From Acidiphilium multivorum AIU301 (GTDB lineage Bacteria > Pseudomonadota > Alphaproteobacteria > Acetobacterales > Acetobacteraceae), in assembly GCF_000202835.1 (NCBI RefSeq), contig NC_015186.1, positions 186,001 through 250,000 of the forward strand: 64,000 nucleotides of DNA. Reading direction: 5' to 3'. Each line of letters opens with the position of its first letter. The first letter of the stretch is position 1. Shown piece after piece: positions 40,054 to 61,082 of this stretch. Both the position numbers and the translations under genes were made by a program. The notes beneath the pieces were generated by a model. It was not told the DNA's origin and did no database searches. It worked only from the letters and a program-made list of their open reading frames with translations.

Positions 40054-40515
40054 TCAGCGGAGCAAAAACATCCCCTCGACCTCGACCGCCGCGTTGAGCG
40101 GCAGCGAGGCGACGCCCACGGTCGAGCGCGCATGCCGCCCCGCCTCGCCGAAAATCTCCACCGCGAGGTCCGATGCCCCGTTCATCACTTTCGCGTGCTC
40201 GGCGAAATCCGCCGTCGCCGCAATGAACCCGCCGAGCCGCACCACCTGGGCAACTGCATCGAGTCCGCCCTCGACATGCGCCTCGATCTGCGCGAGCACG
40301 TTGATAAAACAGGCCCGCGCTGCCGCAGTCCCGTCCTCGACCGTCACTCCGTCGCCGAGCTTTCCCGTCACCACGAGCTTGCCGCCCGCGAGCGGCAACT
40401 GCCCGCTGACGATCGCCATTCCACCGGCGACCACCACCGGCACGTAATTCGCCACGGCCTTCGCCGCGGGCGGAAGGGTTATGCCGTTCTCGGCGAGGCG
40501 CGCGCGTATATCCAT
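40054..40515 (-). CDS. RidA family protein (reactive imine deaminase-like)
   Basis: 153-residue member of the YjgF/YER057c/UK114 family, which hydrolyses reactive enamine/imine intermediates released by PLP enzymes. It begins with an extension (MDIRARLAENGITLPPAAKAVANYVPVVVAGG), typical of the subgroup sometimes called YjgH/TdcF-like. The Arg that binds the substrate carboxylate in canonical RidA (R105 of IPR..RSCV) is not obvious here; the matching region reads MNGASDLAVEIFGEAGRHARSTVG-like, with an Arg before STVG. Its start is 3 nt after the stop of the NrdJ-like gene, so the two are co-transcribed. Confidence 0.85.
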   Translation of the reverse strand: MDIRARLAENGITLPPAAKAVANYVPVVVAGGMAIVSGQLPLAGGKLVVTGKLGDGVTVEDGTAAARACFINVLAQIEAHVEGGLDAVAQVVRLGGFIAATADFAEHAKVMNGASDLAVEIFGEAGRHARSTVGVASLPLNAAVEVEGMFLLR

Positions 40516-40518
40516 GGA

Positions 40519-42045
40519 TCAGCTCACGAGTTTCAGGACGGGACGCTGGCGCTTCGGCCGGCCGGTTCCGGTCTCCGGCAGGTCCAGCGGCAGCAGCGGA
40601 GCGGCGGCATCGACACCAGCCGCATCGTCGGCAAGGTCGAGCGCCGCGAGATCGGGCCGCTGCGAATAGGTCGCGGCCAGGTGCCGGAACACATAGTCGA
40701 GGAGCGAGGTCGCCTGGCTGATCATTGCGTCGCCTTCCACCGCGCCGGCGGGCGCGAAGCGGGTGAAGGCAAATTCATCGACGAATTCATCCAGAGGCAC
40801 GCCATGCTGCAACCCGATGCTGACCGCGCCGGCGAACGCCTCGGCCATGCCGCGCAGCGTTGCGGAGTCCTTCGGTAGCGAGATCATGATCTCGCCCAGC
40901 CGCCCGTCCGGATATTCACCGGTGCGCAGGAATAGCCGGTGCCCGCCCACCGAAACCTTCTGGGTGTAGCCGCCGCGGCGCGCCGGCAGCTTGCCGCGCC
41001 CGGCGGAGGCCGCGCGCGGCGCGGGGAGGGACGGCACCTCGGGCAGGATGGCGCAGACCGGTGCGATGGCCTCGCGCATTGCGGCGATGCCGGCGGCATC
41101 GGTCACGCCGAACGGATCGGCGCCGGCCAGGCTCGCGGCCAGCGCCGACTCGGCCGTACGGCCGGAGGCGGCAAGCCGCGCCCGCGCCCAGCGGGCGAGC
41201 CCGCCCTCGGAGTCCAGCGCCGAGAGCGGTGCTGCGATCCCAACCGTCTCGACGTCGAGCAGCATCTCCACCGGCCCCGGCGGCAGCAGCCCGGTCAGGC
41301 TGCGATGCTGGCGCAGGCCGCACGCCAGGGCCCGCTCGCGCGCGTCGAGCAAGGCGGCGCGCAGGCCGGGCTGGGCGCAACTGGCGGGAACCGGAACCGG
41401 CGTGATGGCGCATCCCGGCGCGATGCCCCGCGCCAGCAGCCCGGCCGAGGCAATATCCGCATGGGCGGCGAGCAGCGCGCCGATCGTCGCGGCCACGTCG
41501 CGCGCCGTGGGGCTCGCGTAATCGATATCGAGGCGCGCCAGCAGCAGGGCGAGGTCGGCCATGCCGAGTGCGAGGCGCTGGGCCGAAGGTTGCGCCAGCG
41601 AGAGGGCGAGCACCGCGTGTTCGACCGCCTCGCCGAACGCGGCAGCGTCGAACATGCCGCTCTCGTCGAGGAACTGCGGCAGGTTGAAGACGAAGCCAGG
41701 CACCGGCTCGGCACGGCCCTGCCAGATGCCAGGGCTCGGCGCGGCGCGGCGCGTTGCGACCAGCCGGTGCAGCGTGGACGCGACATCCTCGCCGCGACCC
41801 AGACGCTCCGCGGCGGCGGCAAGCGGCGCGATCCAGGCATCGGCCGCCTGGTCGACCCCGATCATCGAGCGATCGGCGCGTAGCGCCACCAGCCCGGCGG
41901 CGGCCTGATCGCTCCAGTCGGCAGGAATGATGGCGGGTTCGGGTGCGGCATCGGGATCGATCCCGATCTCGACCCGTTTGAGCCGGATGCCGCGCCACGC
42001 GCGGTGCGGTGTCGGGCGATGCCTGCTGGCGGGATCCTTCCTCAT
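40519..42045 (-). CDS. Degenerate class II ribonucleotide reductase-like protein with TSCPD domain
   Basis: 508 residues. The C-terminal 170 residues match the tail of long adenosylcobalamin-dependent reductases (NrdJ): YTQKVSVGGHRLFLRTGEYP, LGEIMISLPKD, SIGLQHGVPLDEFVDEFAFTRF, ATSLLDYVFRHLA. The part near 160-205 (LALGMADLALLLARLDIDYA) matches a helix of the reductase barrel. The catalytic finger-loop (N-P-C-G-E in active enzymes) and the C-terminal redox cysteines are absent; the few Cys residues lie elsewhere. It therefore should not reduce nucleotides alone. It could be an NrdJb-like accessory subunit, as in the split enzyme of Pseudomonas aeruginosa, or a regulator. Upstream are NrdR-box-like sites. 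ridA follows after 3 nt. Confidence 0.8.
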   Translation of the reverse strand: MRKDPASRHRPTPHRAWRGIRLKRVEIGIDPDAAPEPAIIPADWSDQAAAGLVALRADRSMIGVDQAADAWIAPLAAAAERLGRGEDVASTLHRLVATRRAAPSPGIWQGRAEPVPGFVFNLPQFLDESGMFDAAAFGEAVEHAVLALSLAQPSAQRLALGMADLALLLARLDIDYASPTARDVAATIGALLAAHADIASAGLLARGIAPGCAITPVPVPASCAQPGLRAALLDARERALACGLRQHRSLTGLLPPGPVEMLLDVETVGIAAPLSALDSEGGLARWARARLAASGRTAESALAASLAGADPFGVTDAAGIAAMREAIAPVCAILPEVPSLPAPRAASAGRGKLPARRGGYTQKVSVGGHRLFLRTGEYPDGRLGEIMISLPKDSATLRGMAEAFAGAVSIGLQHGVPLDEFVDEFAFTRFAPAGAVEGDAMISQATSLLDYVFRHLAATYSQRPDLAALDLADDAAGVDAAAPLLPLDLPETGTGRPKRQRPVLKLVS

Positions 42046-42088: not shown

Positions 42089-42104
42089 CGGCGTCATCTT
42101 GTGG
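42089..42104. promoter_or_regulatory. Candidate NrdR box, distal half-degenerate copy
   Basis: 16-bp site CGGCGTCATCTTGTGG. The right half ATCTTGTGG is identical to that of the stronger box 32 bp away and fits the NrdR consensus right arm (ATMTWGTG); the left arm is poor. NrdR boxes usually occur in pairs separated by three helical turns, as here. It lies 44 bp upstream of the NrdJ-like start. Confidence 0.4.
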
Positions 42105-42120
42105 AAAATTCAGGTCACGG

Positions 42121-42136
42121 CCACAAAATCTTGTGG
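42121..42136. promoter_or_regulatory. Candidate NrdR box (strong copy) upstream of the NrdJ-like gene
   Basis: 16-bp near-palindrome CCACAAAATCTTGTGG. Its core CACAAAATCTTGTG departs from the NrdR consensus CACWATATMTWGTG at one position. NrdR is the zinc-ribbon/ATP-cone repressor of ribonucleotide reductase genes. With the copy at 42089 it makes a pair with 32-bp phase in the divergent region between the NrdJ-like gene and the NDUFA12 gene. Confidence 0.6.
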
Positions 42137-42140
42137 ATAA
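42132..42140 (-). promoter_or_regulatory. Consensus DnaA box TTATCCACA overlapping the NrdR-like box
   Basis: The plus strand reads TGTGGATAA, so the minus strand has a perfect 9-mer DnaA box, TTATCCACA. A one-mismatch relative (TGTGGAAAA) sits 32 bp away at 42100-42108. DnaA and NrdR both regulate nrd promoters in E. coli. A chance 9-mer match is possible. Confidence 0.4.
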
Positions 42141-42205: not shown

Positions 42206-42643
42206 ATGAACGAACACCGTGATACGGCAGATGCGTCAACGGTTCCGACGCTGGCTTCGCTCGGCGGTCTGCGCCGGCTGATCGCCAATCCCGGGCTGAC
42301 GTTGCACACGCTTCGCCACGGCCTGATGGTAGGGCAGGACAGTTTCGGCAATCGCTATTTCGAGGAACGCAGGGCCAGCAGGCCCGACGGCCGCAAGCGC
42401 CGCTGGGTGATCTATGCCGGCGGCGCGCGGGAAGCCTCGCTGGTGCCGCCTGAATGGCATGCCTGGCTGCATTTCACGACCGACGCCCCGCTCTCCGAGG
42501 CTTCGCGCCGCCCCTGGCAGAAGCCGCACCAGCCGAATCTGACGGGAACGCCTGGTTCCTACCGGCCGCGCGGCCACGATTATCGCGGCGGCACGCGGGG
42601 GATGGCCACGGGCGATTACGAATCCTGGACGCCGGAAGGCTGA
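42206..42643 (+). CDS. NADH:ubiquinone oxidoreductase accessory subunit, NDUFA12 family
   Basis: 145 residues from the ATG at 42206. It is homologous to the 17.2-kDa complex I accessory subunit NDUFA12 (B17.2), which in alphaproteobacteria and mitochondria stabilises the peripheral arm. Conserved features are VGQDSFGNRYFEE near residue 47, RRWVIYAG, VPPEWHAWLHFTTDAPL and the C-terminal KPHQPNLTGTPGSYRP. No other complex I gene is nearby, as is usual in these bacteria. It is followed by mlaD-like and DUF2155 genes, a trio often kept together in alphaproteobacteria. Confidence 0.92.
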   Translation: MNEHRDTADASTVPTLASLGGLRRLIANPGLTLHTLRHGLMVGQDSFGNRYFEERRASRPDGRKRRWVIYAGGAREASLVPPEWHAWLHFTTDAPLSEASRRPWQKPHQPNLTGTPGSYRPRGHDYRGGTRGMATGDYESWTPEG

Positions 42644-43909: not shown

Positions 43910-45004
43910 ATGACCCATCGCTCGATCCTCTGCACCGCGTGCTGCGCTGCCGCGCTCGCGCTTGGCATGCAGGCGGCGCGGGCCGCGAATCCGCCGCCCG
44001 TGACCGGACCCTATGTCGATCTCGGCATCGGCACCAACCTGATGCAGAACCAGAAATACGATTTTGCCCAGCCGAACGGGGCGCGGGGCGGCAATCTGCT
44101 GTTTCGCCCCGATTATGCCGGGCAGCTCGGCGTCGGCTACGGCCTCGGCAACGGGTTCCGGGTCGAGCTCGACACCAATTTCTTCCGTAACAACGCCGTG
44201 AAGGCCGACGACAATGTCGAGGGCAAGAACCGCGCCTATGGCGGGGTCAACACCTACGGCTTCATGGTCAACGGGTATTACGACATCCCGACCGGGACCA
44301 ATTTCGTGCCCTTCATCGGCGCGGGCCTCGGGTATCAGTGGCAGAAGTTCCAGCATATCGGGGTGGCGGACCCGTCCGGCGACGTTTATGGCGGCACGTA
44401 TGGCAGCCTGGCCTATGATCTCAGCGCCGGCGTCGCCTATGACCTGCCTCAGGTTCCGGGGCTCGCGGTAACGGCGCAATACCAGTACATGTCGCTGGTC
44501 CATAATCGGAAATACAATGATACCGGTGCCGTGCCGAATACCCAGATCAATGTCGGCCAGTCGGGCAATCACACGTTCCTGATCGGCCTGCGCTACGAGC
44601 TGTTCCCGCCTGCGCCGCCGGCTCCGGCCGCGGCTCCCGCGCCGACGCCGGTTGCGGCTCCGGCGCCGGCTCCGGCCCGCACTTACCTGGTGTTCTTCAA
44701 CTGGGACAAGGCGAACCTGACGCCGCGGGCGCAGCAGATCGTCTCCGAGGCGGCGAAGGCGTCGCAGACCACGAAGGTGACGCGTCTGAACGTGAACGGC
44801 TATACCGATACCTCGGGTGCGCCGGCCTACAACATGAAGCTGTCGCTGCGCCGCGCGCACAACGTGGCGGCCCAGCTGGTTGCGGATGGCGTGTCGAAGA
44901 ACGACATCGTGATCAAGGGCTATGGCGAGACGCACCTTCTGGTGCCGACCGGCCCGAATGTTCGCGAGCCGCAGAACCGCCGCGTGGAAATCATCCTCCA
45001 CTGA
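43910..45004 (+). CDS. OmpA family outer membrane protein, copy 1
   Basis: 364 residues: a signal peptide (to about residue 26, AARA), an 8-stranded beta-barrel of OmpA/surface-antigen type (30-225; TGPYVDLGIGTN, GYGLGNGFRVELD), a Pro/Ala linker and a C-terminal OmpA peptidoglycan-binding domain (about 245-364; NGYTDTSGAPAYNMKLSLRRA, NRRVEIIL). The Asp and Arg that grip diaminopimelate are both present. From residue 225 to the end it is identical to the next gene, at the DNA level too. A strong terminator follows. The promoter lies in the 150-bp gap upstream, where I see no confident elements. Confidence 0.93.
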   Translation: MTHRSILCTACCAAALALGMQAARAANPPPVTGPYVDLGIGTNLMQNQKYDFAQPNGARGGNLLFRPDYAGQLGVGYGLGNGFRVELDTNFFRNNAVKADDNVEGKNRAYGGVNTYGFMVNGYYDIPTGTNFVPFIGAGLGYQWQKFQHIGVADPSGDVYGGTYGSLAYDLSAGVAYDLPQVPGLAVTAQYQYMSLVHNRKYNDTGAVPNTQINVGQSGNHTFLIGLRYELFPPAPPAPAAAPAPTPVAAPAPAPARTYLVFFNWDKANLTPRAQQIVSEAAKASQTTKVTRLNVNGYTDTSGAPAYNMKLSLRRAHNVAAQLVADGVSKNDIVIKGYGETHLLVPTGPNVREPQNRRVEIILH

Positions 45005-45260: not shown

Positions 45261-46346
45261 ATGAAATTGCGCACGACACTTCTGGCGGCGACGATCATCG
45301 CGGCTCCCGCCCTGGTTCCGGCGGCGGCGATGGCTCAGCCGGTCACCGGCCCCTATGTCAGCCTTGGCCTCGGCTACAACATCATGGGCAGCCGCAAGGT
45401 GAAAAGCATCTCGACGCCGTACGGGGATTTTGCCTCGGGGGCGCGTACCCTCTTCCACAACGGGTTCACCGGCGAGGCTTCGGTCGGCTACGGCTTCGGC
45501 AACGGCTTCCGCGTCGAACTCGAGGGCGACTATTTCCACAATCAGGCCGCGAAGGTCGACGGGAACGGCGCGCAGGCGGTGGTATCCGGCACCGAGCAGA
45601 AATACGGCTTCATGGCGAACGCCCTGTATGATTTCGATGTCGGCGTTCCCTATGTCTATCCGTATGTCGGTGCCGGCATCGGCTATCAGTGGCTGCAGTG
45701 GCGCAACGCCGGCGTGACGGGCGCGCGCTTCAACGGCACGCCCGGCGCCTTCGCCTACCAGGCGATCGCCGGTCTGGCCTTCCCGATCCCGGCCGCGCCG
45801 GGCCTGTCCGCCACCGTCGAATATCGCTACATGCGCACCATGGGCAGCGACAACTATCGCGCCACCGTCGGGGCTACACCGGTGACGATGAAGGTGGGCG
45901 ACGAAGGCAATAATATGCTGATGGTCGGCCTGCGCTACGAGCTGTTCCCGCCTGCGCCGCCGGCTCCGGCCGCGGCTCCCGCGCCGACGCCGGTTGCGGC
46001 TCCGGCGCCGGCTCCGGCCCGCACTTACCTGGTGTTCTTCAACTGGGACAAGGCGAACCTGACGCCGCGGGCGCAGCAGATCGTCTCCGAGGCGGCGAAG
46101 GCGTCGCAGACCACGAAGGTGACGCGTCTGAACGTGAACGGCTATACCGATACCTCGGGTGCGCCGGCCTACAACATGAAGCTGTCGCTGCGCCGCGCGC
46201 ACAACGTGGCGGCCCAGCTGGTTGCGGATGGCGTGTCGAAGAACGACATCGTGATCAAGGGCTATGGCGAGACGCACCTTCTGGTGCCGACCGGCCCGAA
46301 TGTTCGCGAGCCGCAGAACCGCCGCGTGGAAATCATCCTCCACTGA
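45261..46346 (+). CDS. OmpA family outer membrane protein, copy 2
   Basis: 361 residues: a Sec signal peptide (to about residue 25, AMAQ), a beta-barrel (26-222) that is clearly homologous to copy 1 (TGPYVSLGLGYN, GYGFGNGFRVELEGDYF) but substantially diverged, then the same linker and OmpA domain as copy 1, residue for residue from 222 to the end. A good ribosome site (GAGGAGAG) precedes the ATG. The 204-bp gap before it starts right after the copy 1 terminator and contains a small CCTGC-ATCG-GCAGG hairpin. Two barrels with one shared anchor suggest paralogues kept in step by gene conversion. Confidence 0.93.
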   Translation: MKLRTTLLAATIIAAPALVPAAAMAQPVTGPYVSLGLGYNIMGSRKVKSISTPYGDFASGARTLFHNGFTGEASVGYGFGNGFRVELEGDYFHNQAAKVDGNGAQAVVSGTEQKYGFMANALYDFDVGVPYVYPYVGAGIGYQWLQWRNAGVTGARFNGTPGAFAYQAIAGLAFPIPAAPGLSATVEYRYMRTMGSDNYRATVGATPVTMKVGDEGNNMLMVGLRYELFPPAPPAPAAAPAPTPVAAPAPAPARTYLVFFNWDKANLTPRAQQIVSEAAKASQTTKVTRLNVNGYTDTSGAPAYNMKLSLRRAHNVAAQLVADGVSKNDIVIKGYGETHLLVPTGPNVREPQNRRVEIILH

Positions 46347-55064: not shown

Positions 55065-57350
55065 ATGGATATCCCGGCAGACTTTTCCGCTTCCCTTTCC
55101 TCCGTGATCGACACGATGGCGCCGATCTCGGCGCAGATCTGGGATGCAAAATACCGGCTGAAGGACGAGGCCGGCGAGCCGGTCGACCGCACCGTCGAGG
55201 ACACATGGCGGCGTGTCGCCCGCGCCCTGGCGGAAACCGAGCGCGAGCCCTCAAGCTGGGAGGCGCCGTTCTACGAGGCGCTGCGCGATTTCCGCTTCGT
55301 CCCCGCCGGGCGGATCATTTCCGGCGCCGGCACGGCGCGGCGGGTAACGCTGTTCAACTGCTTCGTGATGGGCGACATCGAGGACGATCTCGGCCGGATC
55401 TTCGCCCATCTGCGCGAGGCGGCGCTGACCATGCAACAGGGCGGCGGCATCGGCTACGATTTCTCCTCGATCCGGCCCAAGGGCGCTGCGGTGCGCGGGG
55501 TCGGCGCCGATGCGTCGGGTCCGCTCTCGTTCATGGATGTGTGGGATTCGATGTGCCGCACCATTATGTCCGCCGGGGCGCGGCGCGGCGCGATGATGGC
55601 GACAATGCGCTGCGACCATCCCGACATCGAGGCCTTCATTGCCGCCAAGCGCGAGCCTGGGCGGCTGCGCAACTTCAACCTCTCGGTGCTCGTCACCGAC
55701 GATTTCATGCGCGCGGTCGAGGCGGATGCGGCGTGGGATCTCGTGTTCGAGGGCAAGGTCTATCGCACGCTGCAGGCGCGGGCGCTGTGGGAGGCGATCA
55801 CCCGCGCGACCTATGATTACGCCGAGCCGGGCGTGATCTTCATCGACCGGATCAACAAGCGCAACAACCTCTATTACTGCGAGACGATCCACGCGACCAA
55901 TCCCTGCGGCGAGCAGCCGCTGCCGCCCTATGGCGCCTGCCTGCTCGGCTCGATCAACCTCGCGCGGCTGGTGCGCGATCCGTTCGGCTCCGGCGCGCGG
56001 ATCGACGAGGCGGAGCTTGCCGAACTCGTCACCATTGCGGTCCGCATGCTGGACGACACGATCGACGCCTCCGGCTTCCCGCTGGAGGCGCAGCGCGAGG
56101 AGGCGGTGGCCAAACGGCGCGTCGGCCTCGGCATGACCGGGCTCGCCGATGCGCTGATGATGTGCGGCCTCCGCTACGGCACGCCGGAGGCCGCCGCGCG
56201 GGCCGGCGACTGGGCGCGGCAGATCGAGCGCGCCGCCTATCTCGCCTCCGCCGCACTCGCCGCCGAGAAGGGCGCGTTCCCGCTCTACGACGCCGCGCAA
56301 TACCTCGCCGGCGAGACCATCGCCGGGCTCGACGAGGATGTCCGCGCCGCCATCGCCGCGCACGGAATCCGCAACGCGCTGCTTACCTCGGTCGCGCCGA
56401 CGGGGACGATCTCGCTGCTGTCGGACAACGTGTCGAGCGGGGTCGAGCCGGTCTTCGCCCTGGCCTATACCCGCAAGGTGCTGCAACGCGATGGCAGCCG
56501 GCGCGAGGAGGAGGTCACCGACTACGCGCTGCGGCTGTTCCGCGCGAAGTTCGGCGAGGGGGCGCCGCTGCCCGCGCATTTCGTCACCGCGCAGGAGCTG
56601 ACGCCGGCCGAACATGTGCGGATGCAGGCGGCAGTGCAGCGCCATGTCGACAGCGCGATCTCCAAGACGGTGAACGTGCCGGAGGATATCGGCTTCGAGG
56701 ATTTCCAGGAGGTCTATCTCGACGCCTACCGCAGCGGCTGCAAGGGTTGCACCACCTATCGGCCGAACGCGGTGACCGGCTCGGTGCTGGAGGTCGCACC
56801 ACCCGCGGATGCAAAGCCGGCGGTAGCCGCGCCCGCGACCACCGCCGCCGGGCTGCTGGTGCGCGCCGACAAGCTGATCGGTGCCACCTACAAGCTGCGC
56901 TGGCCGGATAGCGAGCACGCGATGTACGTCACGATCAACGACATCGAGCAGGACGGGATGCGCCGGCCGTTCGAGGTGTTCGTCAACTCGAAGAATCTCG
57001 AACATTACGCCTGGGTGGTGGCGTTGACGCGGATGATCTCGGCGGTGTTCCGCCGGGGCGGCGAGGTCGCTTTCGTGGCCGAGGAGCTGAAGCAGGTGTT
57101 CGACCCGCGCGGCGGGCAGTGGAGCGGCGGGCGCTACGTGCCCTCGCTGGTCGCGGCGATCGGCGACGTGATCGAGCGGCACATGGTCGAGACCGGGTTC
57201 CTGGTGCCGCCATCGAGCCAGCAGCGCGTGGCGGAAGCGCCGGCCACAACCCCGCTCGGCGCGCTCTGCCCGAAATGCAGCCAGCCCGGGCTGGTGCGCG
57301 AGGCGGGCTGCCTGAGCTGCCTGCATTGCGGCTGGTCGAAATGCGGCTGA
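55065..57350 (+). CDS. nrdJ: Adenosylcobalamin-dependent ribonucleoside-diphosphate reductase (class II)
   Basis: 761-residue oxygen-independent reductase making deoxyribonucleotides with coenzyme B12. The disulfide partner Cys is in TLFNCFVMG near residue 101, and the finger loop TNPCGEQPLPPYGACLLGSINL near 280 carries the radical Cys and its Glu. A later CKGCTTYRPN precedes the TSCPD domain (about 605-715; GATYKLRWPDSEHAMYVTIND), and a zinc-ribbon-like tail CPKCSQP...CLHCGWSKC ends the protein. The ATG at 55065 has CGGAG 8 nt before; a GTG at 55056 is possible. No NrdR-type box is visible upstream, unlike the NrdJ-like gene at 40519. Confidence 0.95.
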   Translation: MDIPADFSASLSSVIDTMAPISAQIWDAKYRLKDEAGEPVDRTVEDTWRRVARALAETEREPSSWEAPFYEALRDFRFVPAGRIISGAGTARRVTLFNCFVMGDIEDDLGRIFAHLREAALTMQQGGGIGYDFSSIRPKGAAVRGVGADASGPLSFMDVWDSMCRTIMSAGARRGAMMATMRCDHPDIEAFIAAKREPGRLRNFNLSVLVTDDFMRAVEADAAWDLVFEGKVYRTLQARALWEAITRATYDYAEPGVIFIDRINKRNNLYYCETIHATNPCGEQPLPPYGACLLGSINLARLVRDPFGSGARIDEAELAELVTIAVRMLDDTIDASGFPLEAQREEAVAKRRVGLGMTGLADALMMCGLRYGTPEAAARAGDWARQIERAAYLASAALAAEKGAFPLYDAAQYLAGETIAGLDEDVRAAIAAHGIRNALLTSVAPTGTISLLSDNVSSGVEPVFALAYTRKVLQRDGSRREEEVTDYALRLFRAKFGEGAPLPAHFVTAQELTPAEHVRMQAAVQRHVDSAISKTVNVPEDIGFEDFQEVYLDAYRSGCKGCTTYRPNAVTGSVLEVAPPADAKPAVAAPATTAAGLLVRADKLIGATYKLRWPDSEHAMYVTINDIEQDGMRRPFEVFVNSKNLEHYAWVVALTRMISAVFRRGGEVAFVAEELKQVFDPRGGQWSGGRYVPSLVAAIGDVIERHMVETGFLVPPSSQQRVAEAPATTPLGALCPKCSQPGLVREAGCLSCLHCGWSKCG

Positions 57351-58568: not shown

Positions 58569-61082
58569 ATGCCAGTCTCCACGCAGAATGATCTGCTCCG
58601 CCGCGACCGGGTTAGGCTCGGCGCCTCGCCCGCCTCGAAGGCAGCGGCGATCGAGGAGGCCGCGCAGTTGCTGATCGCGTCCGGCTGCGTCGAGCCGGGA
58701 TATGCGCAGAGCATGTTGCGCCGTGAAGCGGTCGCCAACACGTTCCTTGGTCACGGTGTCGTCATTCCGCACGGGATGGGCGAGGACCGGCACATGGTCC
58801 GGCGCGACGGCATCGCAGTGGTGCAGGTACCGGGCGGTGTGGAATGGGGGACGGGGCAGATGGCATGGCTCATCGTCGCCATCGCTGCGCGGGGCGACGC
58901 GCATATCGCCATCCTGCGCCGCCTTACCGCGCTGATGCAGGACGGAGAAAAACTCGCCGCGCTGGCAGTCGCGGAGGACGTGGACGAGATCGTCGCCGCC
59001 CTCGCGGGCGAGGCACCGCGCGCCGCTCCGGCCGCGCCGGAGGCCGATCTGGCGCACCGGTTCGACTTCGTGGTGGACTATCCCGCCGGGCTCCACGCGC
59101 GGCCGGCGACTGCCTGGGTGGAGGCGGTGCGGCAGAGCGGCCTCAGAGTACAGGTGCGGCATGGCGACGAGGTGGCAGACGGGCGCAACCTGGTGGCGCT
59201 GCTGCAGCTTGGCCTGCGCGCCGGCGACCGTGTGGTGGTTTCCGCCGAGGGGGATGACGCCGCAGCCGGGCTGGCGCGGCTACGCGCGCGGATGGACAGC
59301 CTCACCGCGCAGGAAGTGGCGGATGCGGCGAAGGCGGCGGCGCGCGGCACGGATGCGACGCGGGGTTGGACGCCACCCGGCCCTCTCGCGGCAATCGAGG
59401 GTATCGGCGCCAGTCCGGGCATCGCCATCGGCCGGCTGCATGTCGTCGCCGGCGGCGCGGTGGAGATTGCCGATGTGCCGGTGTCGCTGGCCGAGGGCGG
59501 GGCGCGGCTGGAGGCGGCACTCGCGGCGACGCGCCAGCAGCTTGCCGCCCTGGTCGACGATACCGCCCGCCGGCTCGGCGCCGCGGATGCGGCGATTTTC
59601 CGCGCCCAGGCGGAGCTGCTGAACGACGGCGACCTGATCACTCTGACCTGCCAGCTGATGGTCGAGGGGCATGGCCCGGCTTGGGCGTGGAACCAGGCGA
59701 TCGAGCGGATGGCGGCGAGCCTGTCGGCGCTGGGCAACCCGGTGCTGGCTGGGCGGGCCGCCGATCTGCGGGATGTCGGCCGGCGTGTGCTGGCCTTGCT
59801 TGATCCGTCGGCCGTGCCCGGCTCGCTGCGGGATCTGCCGGCGGCCCCGTGCATCGTCGTCGCCGAGGAACTGTCGCCCTCGGACACTGCGGGGCTCGAT
59901 CTGACGCTTGTGGTCGGGCTGGCGACGGCGCAGGGCGGGCCAACCTCACACACCGCCATCCTCGCCCGCACGCTCGGCCTGCCGGCGCTGGTTGCCGGCG
60001 GCGGCGCGCTGCTGGCAGCAGCCTCCGGCCAGATGGCGATTCTCGATGGCGCGGCGGGGCGGCTTTATCTCGATCCGCCGGAGCCGGCGATTGCCTCGGC
60101 GATCGCCTGGCGCGAGGCGATGCGCGCCCGGCAGGCGGAGGCGGCGCAGCAGCGCGGCGCGCCGGCGGTGACGCGGGATGGGCACCGAATCGAGATTGCC
60201 GCCAATGTCAACCGGCCCGACCAGGTGCGGACAGCCCTCGAGGCCGGCGGCGAGGGCGTCGGGCTGATGCGCACCGAGTTCCTGTTCCTCGAACGCGGCG
60301 CGACGCCGGACGAGGACGAGCAGGAGGCGGTCTACCGCGCGATGATCGCGGCGTTGGAAGGACGGCCCCTGATCATCCGCGCGCTCGATATCGGCGGCGA
60401 CAAGCAGGTGGCGCATCTCGGCCTGCCGCGCGAGGAGAACCCCTTTCTCGGCGTGCGCGGGGCGCGGCTGCTGCTACGCCGGACTGACCTTCTGGAGCCG
60501 CAGCTGCGGGCGATCTATCGCGCGGCGATGGCGGGCGGGGATGTGTCCGTCATGTTCCCGATGGTGACGTCGGCGAGCGAGATCGTCCGGCTTCGCGCCG
60601 CCTGTGAGCGGATCCGCGCCGAGCTTGGCGCGCCGGTGCTGCCGGTGGGGATCATGATCGAGGTGCCCGCGGCGGCGGTCGCGGCGGACCGGCTCGCCGC
60701 ACAGTGCGATTTCCTTTCGATCGGCACCAACGACCTGACGCAGTACGCGCTCGCAATCGACCGGCAGAACCCCGAGCTCGCCGCCGAGGCGGACAGCCTG
60801 CATCCCGCCGTGCTGCGCCTGATCGCGCAGACGGTGGCGGGGGCGGCGAAGCACGGTCGCTGGGTCGGCGTGTGCGGCGGCATTGCAGGTGATCCGTTCG
60901 GTGCGGCGCTGCTCGCTGGACTCGGGGTGAACGAGCTGTCGATGACGCCGCGCGACATCGCTGCCGTCAAGGCGCGATTGCGGGACTCGCGCTTCGACGA
61001 GCTGCGGGCGCTGGCGGCGCGCGCGCTCGATGCCGCGACGGCGGACGAGGTGCGCGCGCTGGATGCGGGAGCGCAGCGATGA
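58569..61082 (+). CDS. fruB: Fructose PTS multiphosphoryl transfer protein (EIIA-HPr-EI fusion)
   Basis: 837-residue fusion that passes phosphate from phosphoenolpyruvate through EI and HPr to EIIA and on to FruA. In order: EIIA-Fru (about 10-150; active His in GHGVVIPHGM near residue 68), HPr (about 170-255; active His in YPAGLHARPA near 177), then enzyme I (about 275-830; active His in GGPTSHTAILAR near 460, PEP-binding LMRTEFLFLERG and GVCGGIAGDPF). All three phosphorylation sites are intact, so fructose uptake needs no separate EI or HPr. The ATG is weakly preceded by a ribosome site (CGAGGAAG). The stop overlaps fruK by 4 nt. Confidence 0.95.
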   Translation: MPVSTQNDLLRRDRVRLGASPASKAAAIEEAAQLLIASGCVEPGYAQSMLRREAVANTFLGHGVVIPHGMGEDRHMVRRDGIAVVQVPGGVEWGTGQMAWLIVAIAARGDAHIAILRRLTALMQDGEKLAALAVAEDVDEIVAALAGEAPRAAPAAPEADLAHRFDFVVDYPAGLHARPATAWVEAVRQSGLRVQVRHGDEVADGRNLVALLQLGLRAGDRVVVSAEGDDAAAGLARLRARMDSLTAQEVADAAKAAARGTDATRGWTPPGPLAAIEGIGASPGIAIGRLHVVAGGAVEIADVPVSLAEGGARLEAALAATRQQLAALVDDTARRLGAADAAIFRAQAELLNDGDLITLTCQLMVEGHGPAWAWNQAIERMAASLSALGNPVLAGRAADLRDVGRRVLALLDPSAVPGSLRDLPAAPCIVVAEELSPSDTAGLDLTLVVGLATAQGGPTSHTAILARTLGLPALVAGGGALLAAASGQMAILDGAAGRLYLDPPEPAIASAIAWREAMRARQAEAAQQRGAPAVTRDGHRIEIAANVNRPDQVRTALEAGGEGVGLMRTEFLFLERGATPDEDEQEAVYRAMIAALEGRPLIIRALDIGGDKQVAHLGLPREENPFLGVRGARLLLRRTDLLEPQLRAIYRAAMAGGDVSVMFPMVTSASEIVRLRAACERIRAELGAPVLPVGIMIEVPAAAVAADRLAAQCDFLSIGTNDLTQYALAIDRQNPELAAEADSLHPAVLRLIAQTVAGAAKHGRWVGVCGGIAGDPFGAALLAGLGVNELSMTPRDIAAVKARLRDSRFDELRALAARALDAATADEVRALDAGAQR

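Follow-up and report, generated by a model that had tools for sequence, protein, structure and literature searches.

A putative pseudoenzyme derived from the long class II ribonucleotide reductase NrdJ in Acidiphilium multivorum and other Acetobacteraceae

The locus and its genes

The window, i.e., the whole stretch of 64,000 nucleotides of Acidiphilium multivorum AIU301 that was analysed, contains a gene termed X here, the open frame of which had been recognised in the initial annotation at its full 508 codons and was found as described. The RidA gene proposed as its partner was likewise confirmed at the short distance given in Table 1 and is followed by enolase; the NDUFA12 and MlaD genes lie divergently upstream of X. 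The window also carries a short class II reductase gene, which belongs to the context of X rather than to the same system.

Table 1. Features of the X locus and related features of the window
Feature	Position	Strand	Details
X, reductase-derived protein, almost certainly non-catalytic	40519..42045	-	ATG start, 508 aa
X core, residues 14-340: N-terminal part and reduced reductase barrel	41026..42006	-	hhalign, AF2, Foldseek
X TSCPD domain, residues 348-475, without redox cysteine array	40621..41004	-	PF12637, AF2, dN/dS
X tail, residues 476-508, predicted disordered; conserved LPL(D/E)LP (485-490), basic/hydrophobic end	40522..40620	-	
RidA/YjgF protein, probable operon partner of X	40054..40515	-	3 nt gap
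NDUFA12, divergent neighbour marking the ancestral nrdJ locus	42209..42643	+	
NrdR-type box 1, CCACAAAATCTTGTGG	42121..42136	.	13/16 to NrdR consensus
NrdR-type box 2, weak, mainly one half-site	42089..42104	.	9/16 to NrdR consensus
DnaA-box-like TTATCCACA, overlapping NrdR-type box 1	42132..42140	-	
Complete short class II reductase NrdJ	55065..57350	+	own TSCPD, NPCGE motif

Domain composition of X

The Pfam TSCPD family (PF12637) matches residues 360-458 of X with 33.6 bits against a gathering score of 22.8. The reductase barrel family (PF02867) is found at residues 154-202 with 16.8 bits, below the cut-off of 23.9, which is exceeded by a short piece in some relatives of X. A single recognisable barrel helix had been described initially; the barrel remnant stands, and more of the reductase survives than this helix, in colinear pieces up to the TSCPD domain. 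The best NCBIfam match is NF005736, the long vitamin B12-dependent ribonucleotide reductase, where X 348-474 aligns with residues 967-1093 of 1222 (1.7e-53), in agreement with the C-terminal resemblance to long class II reductases that had been noticed from the sequence. The score of 181.6 bits is about one tenth of the family cut-off of 1737; the same family also matches each of the 15 proteins in alignment A3. The search of PDB sequences with X gave just two weak matches, one of them a ribonucleotide reductase. Among the 10 of 16 plasmid matches listed, each spans TSCPD residues only, and three of these 10 records carry a B12-dependent reductase annotation.

The conserved motif of the tail lies at 40576-40593, and P483, L485, P486, P490 and V507 are invariant in 26 rows. 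The LPLDLP sequence resembles the start of alphaproteobacterial Hda. A clamp-binding role of the tail was considered and dropped because the position aligned before LPLDLP holds no Q; one row (L026) is shifted in the tail alignment and does have a Q nearby.

Descent from the long alphaproteobacterial NrdJ

X was compared with 12 full-length NrdJ loci of other alphaproteobacterial families, all with NPCSE. In seven of them NDUFA12 divergently adjoins nrdJ, accompanied by MlaD in six of these seven; one of them (L045) has nrdJ and NDUFA12 separated by about 1.1 kb. The stretches examined at the remaining five loci did not show NDUFA12. In the family of the window, Acetobacteraceae, the slot beside NDUFA12 is occupied by the short X. 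The hhalign profile of 26 short relatives is colinear with the 12 full-length NrdJ, residues 120-473 aligning with 490-1083 (E 2.9e-63). Two further pieces are in order but weak, namely 14-54 on NrdJ 12-57 (E 0.039) and 90-108 on NrdJ 138-156 (E 0.6). In the tree of the TSCPD region, 30 short X and the 12 long NrdJ stand on opposite sides of a branch supported 100/100.

Synteny, the colinear profile match and the TSCPD tree make it well supported that X is the positional orthologue of the approximately 1,220-residue alphaproteobacterial NrdJ, cut in place to about 500 residues in Acetobacteraceae. The same three lines place it among class II reductases by descent. The initial suggestion that X came from a duplicated reductase such as that at 55065 gives way to this reading. 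We regard the origin of X, together with its lack of catalysis, as almost certain.

The search with alignment A2 retained 80 loci, 17 of the short type and 63 others treated as the full-length type without each being read to its start. The named short-type loci come from Acidocella, Asaia, Acidisphaera, Komagataeibacter, Acetobacter and Acidisoma. Acidisphaera belongs to Acetobacteraceae, order Acetobacterales, as do the other five genera.

Lost residues and predicted fold

The full-length relative L043 carries NPCSE at 472-476 and cysteines at 199, 474, 485 and 1191-1217. Cysteines 199, 485 and those at 1191-1217 are of the type employed in catalysis and re-reduction. None of these cysteines of L043 has a counterpart in X in the profile alignment, so the absence of the N-P-C-G-E finger loop and of the C-terminal redox cysteines, noted from the start, holds. 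Both the N-x-C-x-E loop and the active-site cysteine pair are gone: NPCSE and C199 of L043 fall within the missing stretch, the position of C485 is not a cysteine in X, and the NrdJ loop PTGT reads PPGP. Nothing in X aligns with NrdJ residues 157-489, which form the missing stretch if the weak middle match is correct, and NrdJ beyond about residue 1083 is replaced by the short tail. X itself has four cysteines (212, 223, 242 and 331). The possibility that catalytic cysteines had been misplaced was raised initially; no cysteine is conserved in the X family, the best column reaching 11 of 26.

Structure prediction of X alone, proposed in the initial annotation, gave two confident folded parts, the core with the barrel remnant and the TSCPD domain. 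With an alignment of 49 rows, AlphaFold2 (AF2) modelled X with a mean pLDDT of 85.4, the folded parts covering about 14-338 and 358-472 and the tail being disordered. In blocks of 10 residues the pLDDT of this deeper alignment was 78-98 for residues 11-340 and 84-94 for 361-460. With 15 rows the mean was 71.3, confidence being high for the core even then and the pLDDT below 50 over most of the TSCPD domain. All 50 Foldseek rows listed for the model are ribonucleotide reductase alpha chains, the first being R. sphaeroides NrdJ (structure 7b9p) with E about 1e-8. The query TM of 0.31-0.32 means that the resemblance to the reductase fold is partial; the crystallised R. sphaeroides construct stops before the TSCPD domain. 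The long NrdJ (NF005736/PRK07562; 7b9p) is like X in its locus, colinear sequence, TSCPD domain, upstream NrdR-type pair and first place among the fold matches; unlike it, X lacks about 700 residues and every catalytic and redox residue.

Distribution and variants of X

The survey comprised 299 genomes of the order Acetobacterales, at least 90% complete and representing 65 genera. Matches to X were found in 294 genomes and 63 genera, in line with the search of related genomes advised initially; G062 and four genomes of genus g60 gave none. The weak match of G008 falls in its own short reductase, and five matches in genera g57 and g82 are variants, which leaves ordinary X in 288 genomes. When 26 low-scoring genomes were re-run, all matched pieces of X, mostly partially. 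No internal stop occurs among the rows listed in the survey. In G078 (L202, a single contig) the X copy is disrupted by a stop and a frame break; the adjoining RidA is broken too, so this may be either a sequencing error or decay, with gene loss under way. In G247, a stretch of N interrupts X. In a wider set, 48 of 60 genomes matched; 14 of these belong to other families, where the matches lie within full-length reductases, judging by frame length, except in G043 (frame 282).

Beside NDUFA12 no trace of X was present in about 1.5 kb examined in G008, nor in the four g60 genomes, and G062 gave no NDUFA12 match. X is missing from these six genomes and therefore is not indispensable.

Four variants (L176, L177, L178 and L180, genera g57 and g82) are complete genes at the locus that retain the core but not the TSCPD domain; in the fifth, G070, the contig ends within the gene. 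No PF12637 match was obtained in the two scanned, L178 and L180. In the profile comparison by hhalign the variants align with X 17-331 (E 1.7e-25), and since the core is common to both and the TSCPD domain is not, the core is the common unit. The variants keep another reductase piece, aligned with NrdJ 547-761 (E 1.9e-18; GHGTL-GAP, SLAHAVAL). This amounts to a second route of erosion from the ancestor shared with X.

Selection on X

The ratio of nonsynonymous to synonymous changes, also called for initially, was estimated by the simple pairwise Nei-Gojobori method in ten pairs. For the whole protein, dN/dS within genera was 0.215 (L001-L002), 0.169 (L004-L005), 0.186 (L005-L006), 0.298 (L003-L004), 0.308 (L001-L003) and 0.247 (L016-L018), with dS of 0.32-0.94. 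The four pairs wider apart in protein sequence gave 0.315 to 0.470. These values show that X has been under purifying selection after the loss of catalysis.

A slowly decaying relic without function could account for the large internal deletions, the loss of the TSCPD domain in two genera, the absence of X in G008, G062 and g60, and the broken copy in G078. Such a relic would hardly combine frames free of internal stops among the rows listed with dN/dS of 0.17-0.31 in genus-level pairs, a confident predicted fold and the conserved operator described below, and we consider it extremely improbable. The view that X is more than a decaying pseudogene, taken initially, is upheld by selection and breadth, though the G078 copy is broken.

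Selection is uneven along the protein. In the TSCPD domain dN/dS is 0.05-0.07 in three of the six genus-level pairs and 0.14-0.20 in the other three; it is below that of the whole protein in 9/10 pairs and above it (0.558) in L020-L023. Columns conserved in at least 90% of rows number 25/135 in the TSCPD domain, 22/230 in the core, 12/110 in the N-terminal part and 8/33 in the tail. X could accordingly be imagined as a TSCPD carrier, with the domain being functional, for example in oligomerisation, and the core acting as scaffolding. The lower dN/dS and the higher conservation of the domain compared with the core speak for this. The four g57 and g82 genomes retain a complete core gene with no TSCPD match, and the start of the domain is changed in the clade of L017, L020, L023, L025 and L026, both of which argue against it and make this explanation improbable.

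Control region of X

NrdR is a nucleotide-sensing repressor, and it is encoded in the genome of the window (168.9 bits). Candidate boxes were scored against an NrdR consensus, with the box spacing taken from papers. Box 1 is the only 16-mer scoring at least 13 in the 64 kb window. Boxes 1 and 2 are 32 bp apart with a spacer of 16 bp; no other pair in the 64 kb with boxes 31-33 bp apart reaches a score of 21. Tandem NrdR boxes are described about 31-32 bp apart (PMC2892513), with spacers of 14-17 bp that keep whole helix turns (PMC12051234). X thus has two NrdR-type boxes at the reported spacing, box 2 being weak. The nrd-type control region of the initial annotation is confirmed inasmuch as tandem NrdR-type sites are present.

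Upstream regions of 41 X genes were collected, and 38 were used after L015, L098 and L099 were dropped as too short. Thirty of these beat dinucleotide shuffles at p<=0.05; the eight no better than shuffles are L018, L023, L027, L029, L030, L085, L093 and L097. Setting aside two that duplicate a record leaves 36, and in 24 of these the best pair begins 76-91 nt upstream. A pair of at least 20 at 31-33 bp was present in 25/36 X promoters versus 0/26 coding-region stretches, a contrast which is partly due to composition since the control stretches are GC-rich coding sequence. Over spacings of 20-45 bp the mean pair score peaks at 32 (19.6), the next being 18.5 at 30. The four complete TSCPD-less variants have their best pairs at 32 bp with scores of 19-22, taken without shuffles.

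Upstream of full-length nrdJ, an NrdR-type pair with p<=0.05 was detected in 8/12 loci. The nrdA gene of the window's genome has a pair of 23 at 32 bp, and its short nrdJ at 55065 has no pair above 16. Among nine nrdA genes the best pair scores 20-26 in seven and 16-17 in two, as raw scores without shuffles, some of the pairs being far from the start.

The sequence TTATNCACA occurs once in the window (0.12 expected; present in 11/100 shuffles). It is found in 10/41 X upstream regions, seven of them in the genus and one holding two copies, versus 0/12 for full-length nrdJ. Joint control of X by NrdR and DnaA is possible.

Reductases in the genomes carrying X

The first survey of reductases covered 35 genomes of the family, 34 of them with X. 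A full-span barrel match, possibly a second or other reductase, was seen in eight (G000, G004, G008, G018, G023, G025, G029 and G031), with no split NrdA match seen alongside it in G025; G005 has a partial second barrel match. The other 26 have class I type matches and X only, with no full-span second reductase; among them NrdA is partial or unseen in G016 and G035, perhaps owing to assembly gaps. G032 shows a further very weak reductase match. The second survey comprised 30 genomes: 19 with ordinary X, the five variants and six without X. A full-span second reductase was found in 0/19 and 0/5 of the first two groups, additional weak hits at about 32-33 bits being present in G111 and G154. From the two surveys it follows that X mostly coexists with class I enzymes and no other reductase, NrdA being the sole one detected in the majority of genomes examined.

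Four of the six genomes without X (G008, G076, G126 and G165, not G062 and G119) have a full-span match of the short-reductase type. This could mean that reductase activity itself replaces the function of X; the association is only a hint because three of the four belong to one genus.

These data bear on the initial idea that X is a subunit of the reductase at 55065 in the manner of P. aeruginosa NrdJa and NrdJb. NrdJb is described as a separate gene carrying a cysteine-rich domain with a six-cysteine array (PMC5704485). X is like NrdJb in being a separate protein that holds C-terminal NrdJ material; unlike NrdJb, it lacks the six C-terminal cysteines, carries core pieces and mostly occurs with no class II catalytic subunit in the genome (26/35 and 19/19 genomes without one). 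The short NrdJ was rightly annotated as a complete class II enzyme with its own TSCPD domain. It shares with X the reductase family and the TSCPD domain, and both genes lie in the window; unlike X, it keeps NPCGE, lacks NrdR-type boxes and is sporadic in the family. Most X-bearing genomes examined have no class II reductase, and four genomes have the short reductase type match and no X. An accessory role of X for the 55065 enzyme is thus very improbable, and the idea was set aside.

RidA and a possible role outside dNTP synthesis

Of 41 family loci (two of which repeat a record), 36 have a RidA gene at most 700 nt downstream, and in 27 of the 36 it lies at most 30 nt away. The exceptions are L008, L019, L089, L094 and L124; in L008 the larger locus has neither RidA nor NDUFA12, and in L019 RidA is farther off. 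RidA accompanies full-length-type NrdJ in 2/63 loci within the flank examined and lies downstream of full-length nrdJ in 2/12 loci of the comparison set. As RidA is common beside X and rare beside full-length NrdJ, the pairing has tightened in the family and is mostly a family feature.

This pairing is the main ground for supposing that X, as a pseudoenzyme, has acquired a function unrelated to dNTP synthesis, together with RidA in metabolite damage control or with other neighbours, the NrdR-type control being a leftover of ancestry. A shared repressor does not imply a shared partner, so RidA may be as relevant as NrdA or NrdB. Against this, the 32 bp spacing is kept in 4/4 complete, strongly diverged TSCPD-less variants, a feature unlikely to persist in a simple remnant of ancestry. 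We consider such a role possible, on the unlikely side.

Proposed role of X in class I dNTP synthesis

The reading we prefer is that the in-place descendant of NrdJ turned into a binding partner or regulator in class I dNTP synthesis. Class I NrdAB would have taken over dNTP synthesis in the Acetobacteraceae lineage, and NrdJ would have shed a large stretch with the finger loop, substrate loop and redox tail. The remnant would have become a pseudoenzyme of about 500 residues in the same place, keeping the NrdR-type operator and becoming tightly linked to RidA. X would exert its effect through binding, be it as a regulator, a chaperone or a scaffold, and this is assigned to class I dNTP synthesis because co-expression with nrdAB through NrdR is expected. 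The likeliest partner would be NrdA or NrdB, as no ATP-cone match was obtained in either protein (628 and 338 aa, respectively) in the one genome checked. The reduced core could serve as the docking unit, with the TSCPD domain and the LPLDLP tail being accessory. The evidence suggests that the dead enzyme came to serve its replacement as a regulator or partner; for the functional part of this reading we hold the chances to be evenly balanced. The narrower proposal that X is a dedicated protein regulator of its replacement, exerting overall-activity or assembly control on a class I reductase without an ATP-cone under the same repressor, is tentative and rather unlikely.

Inactive proteins of the betaherpesvirus M45/UL45 type are derived from class I reductases. 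They are described as inactive homologues of the large subunit (PMC5469499; PMC11772975). They are like X in being reductases turned non-catalytic and retained for another role; unlike X, they are viral, have immune targets and stand outside the NrdR regulon. Among titles and opening parts of abstracts in the openly accessible literature no description of X was found, and by term X was not found in the parts available of PMC9669993 and PMC9531940.

X offers an in-place case in which an essential enzyme was converted to a pseudoenzyme throughout a bacterial order, other families still having intact relatives at this locus. A further, testable level of regulation is proposed for class I reductases lacking the usual ATP-cone switch, and some of the bacteria concerned, the acetic acid bacteria, are readily cultivated and manipulated.

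Other genes of the window

The short nrdJ at 55065 has a CHAD-domain gene on one side and a LacI/PTS cluster on the other and was possibly acquired. A fused PTS EIIA-HPr-EI protein (58569-61082) is encoded beside a LacI regulator. Two adjacent genes of the OmpA family (Pfam assignment of the first copy) share an identical 422-nt 3' end at 44583-45004 and 45925-46346, which looks like a recent gene conversion.
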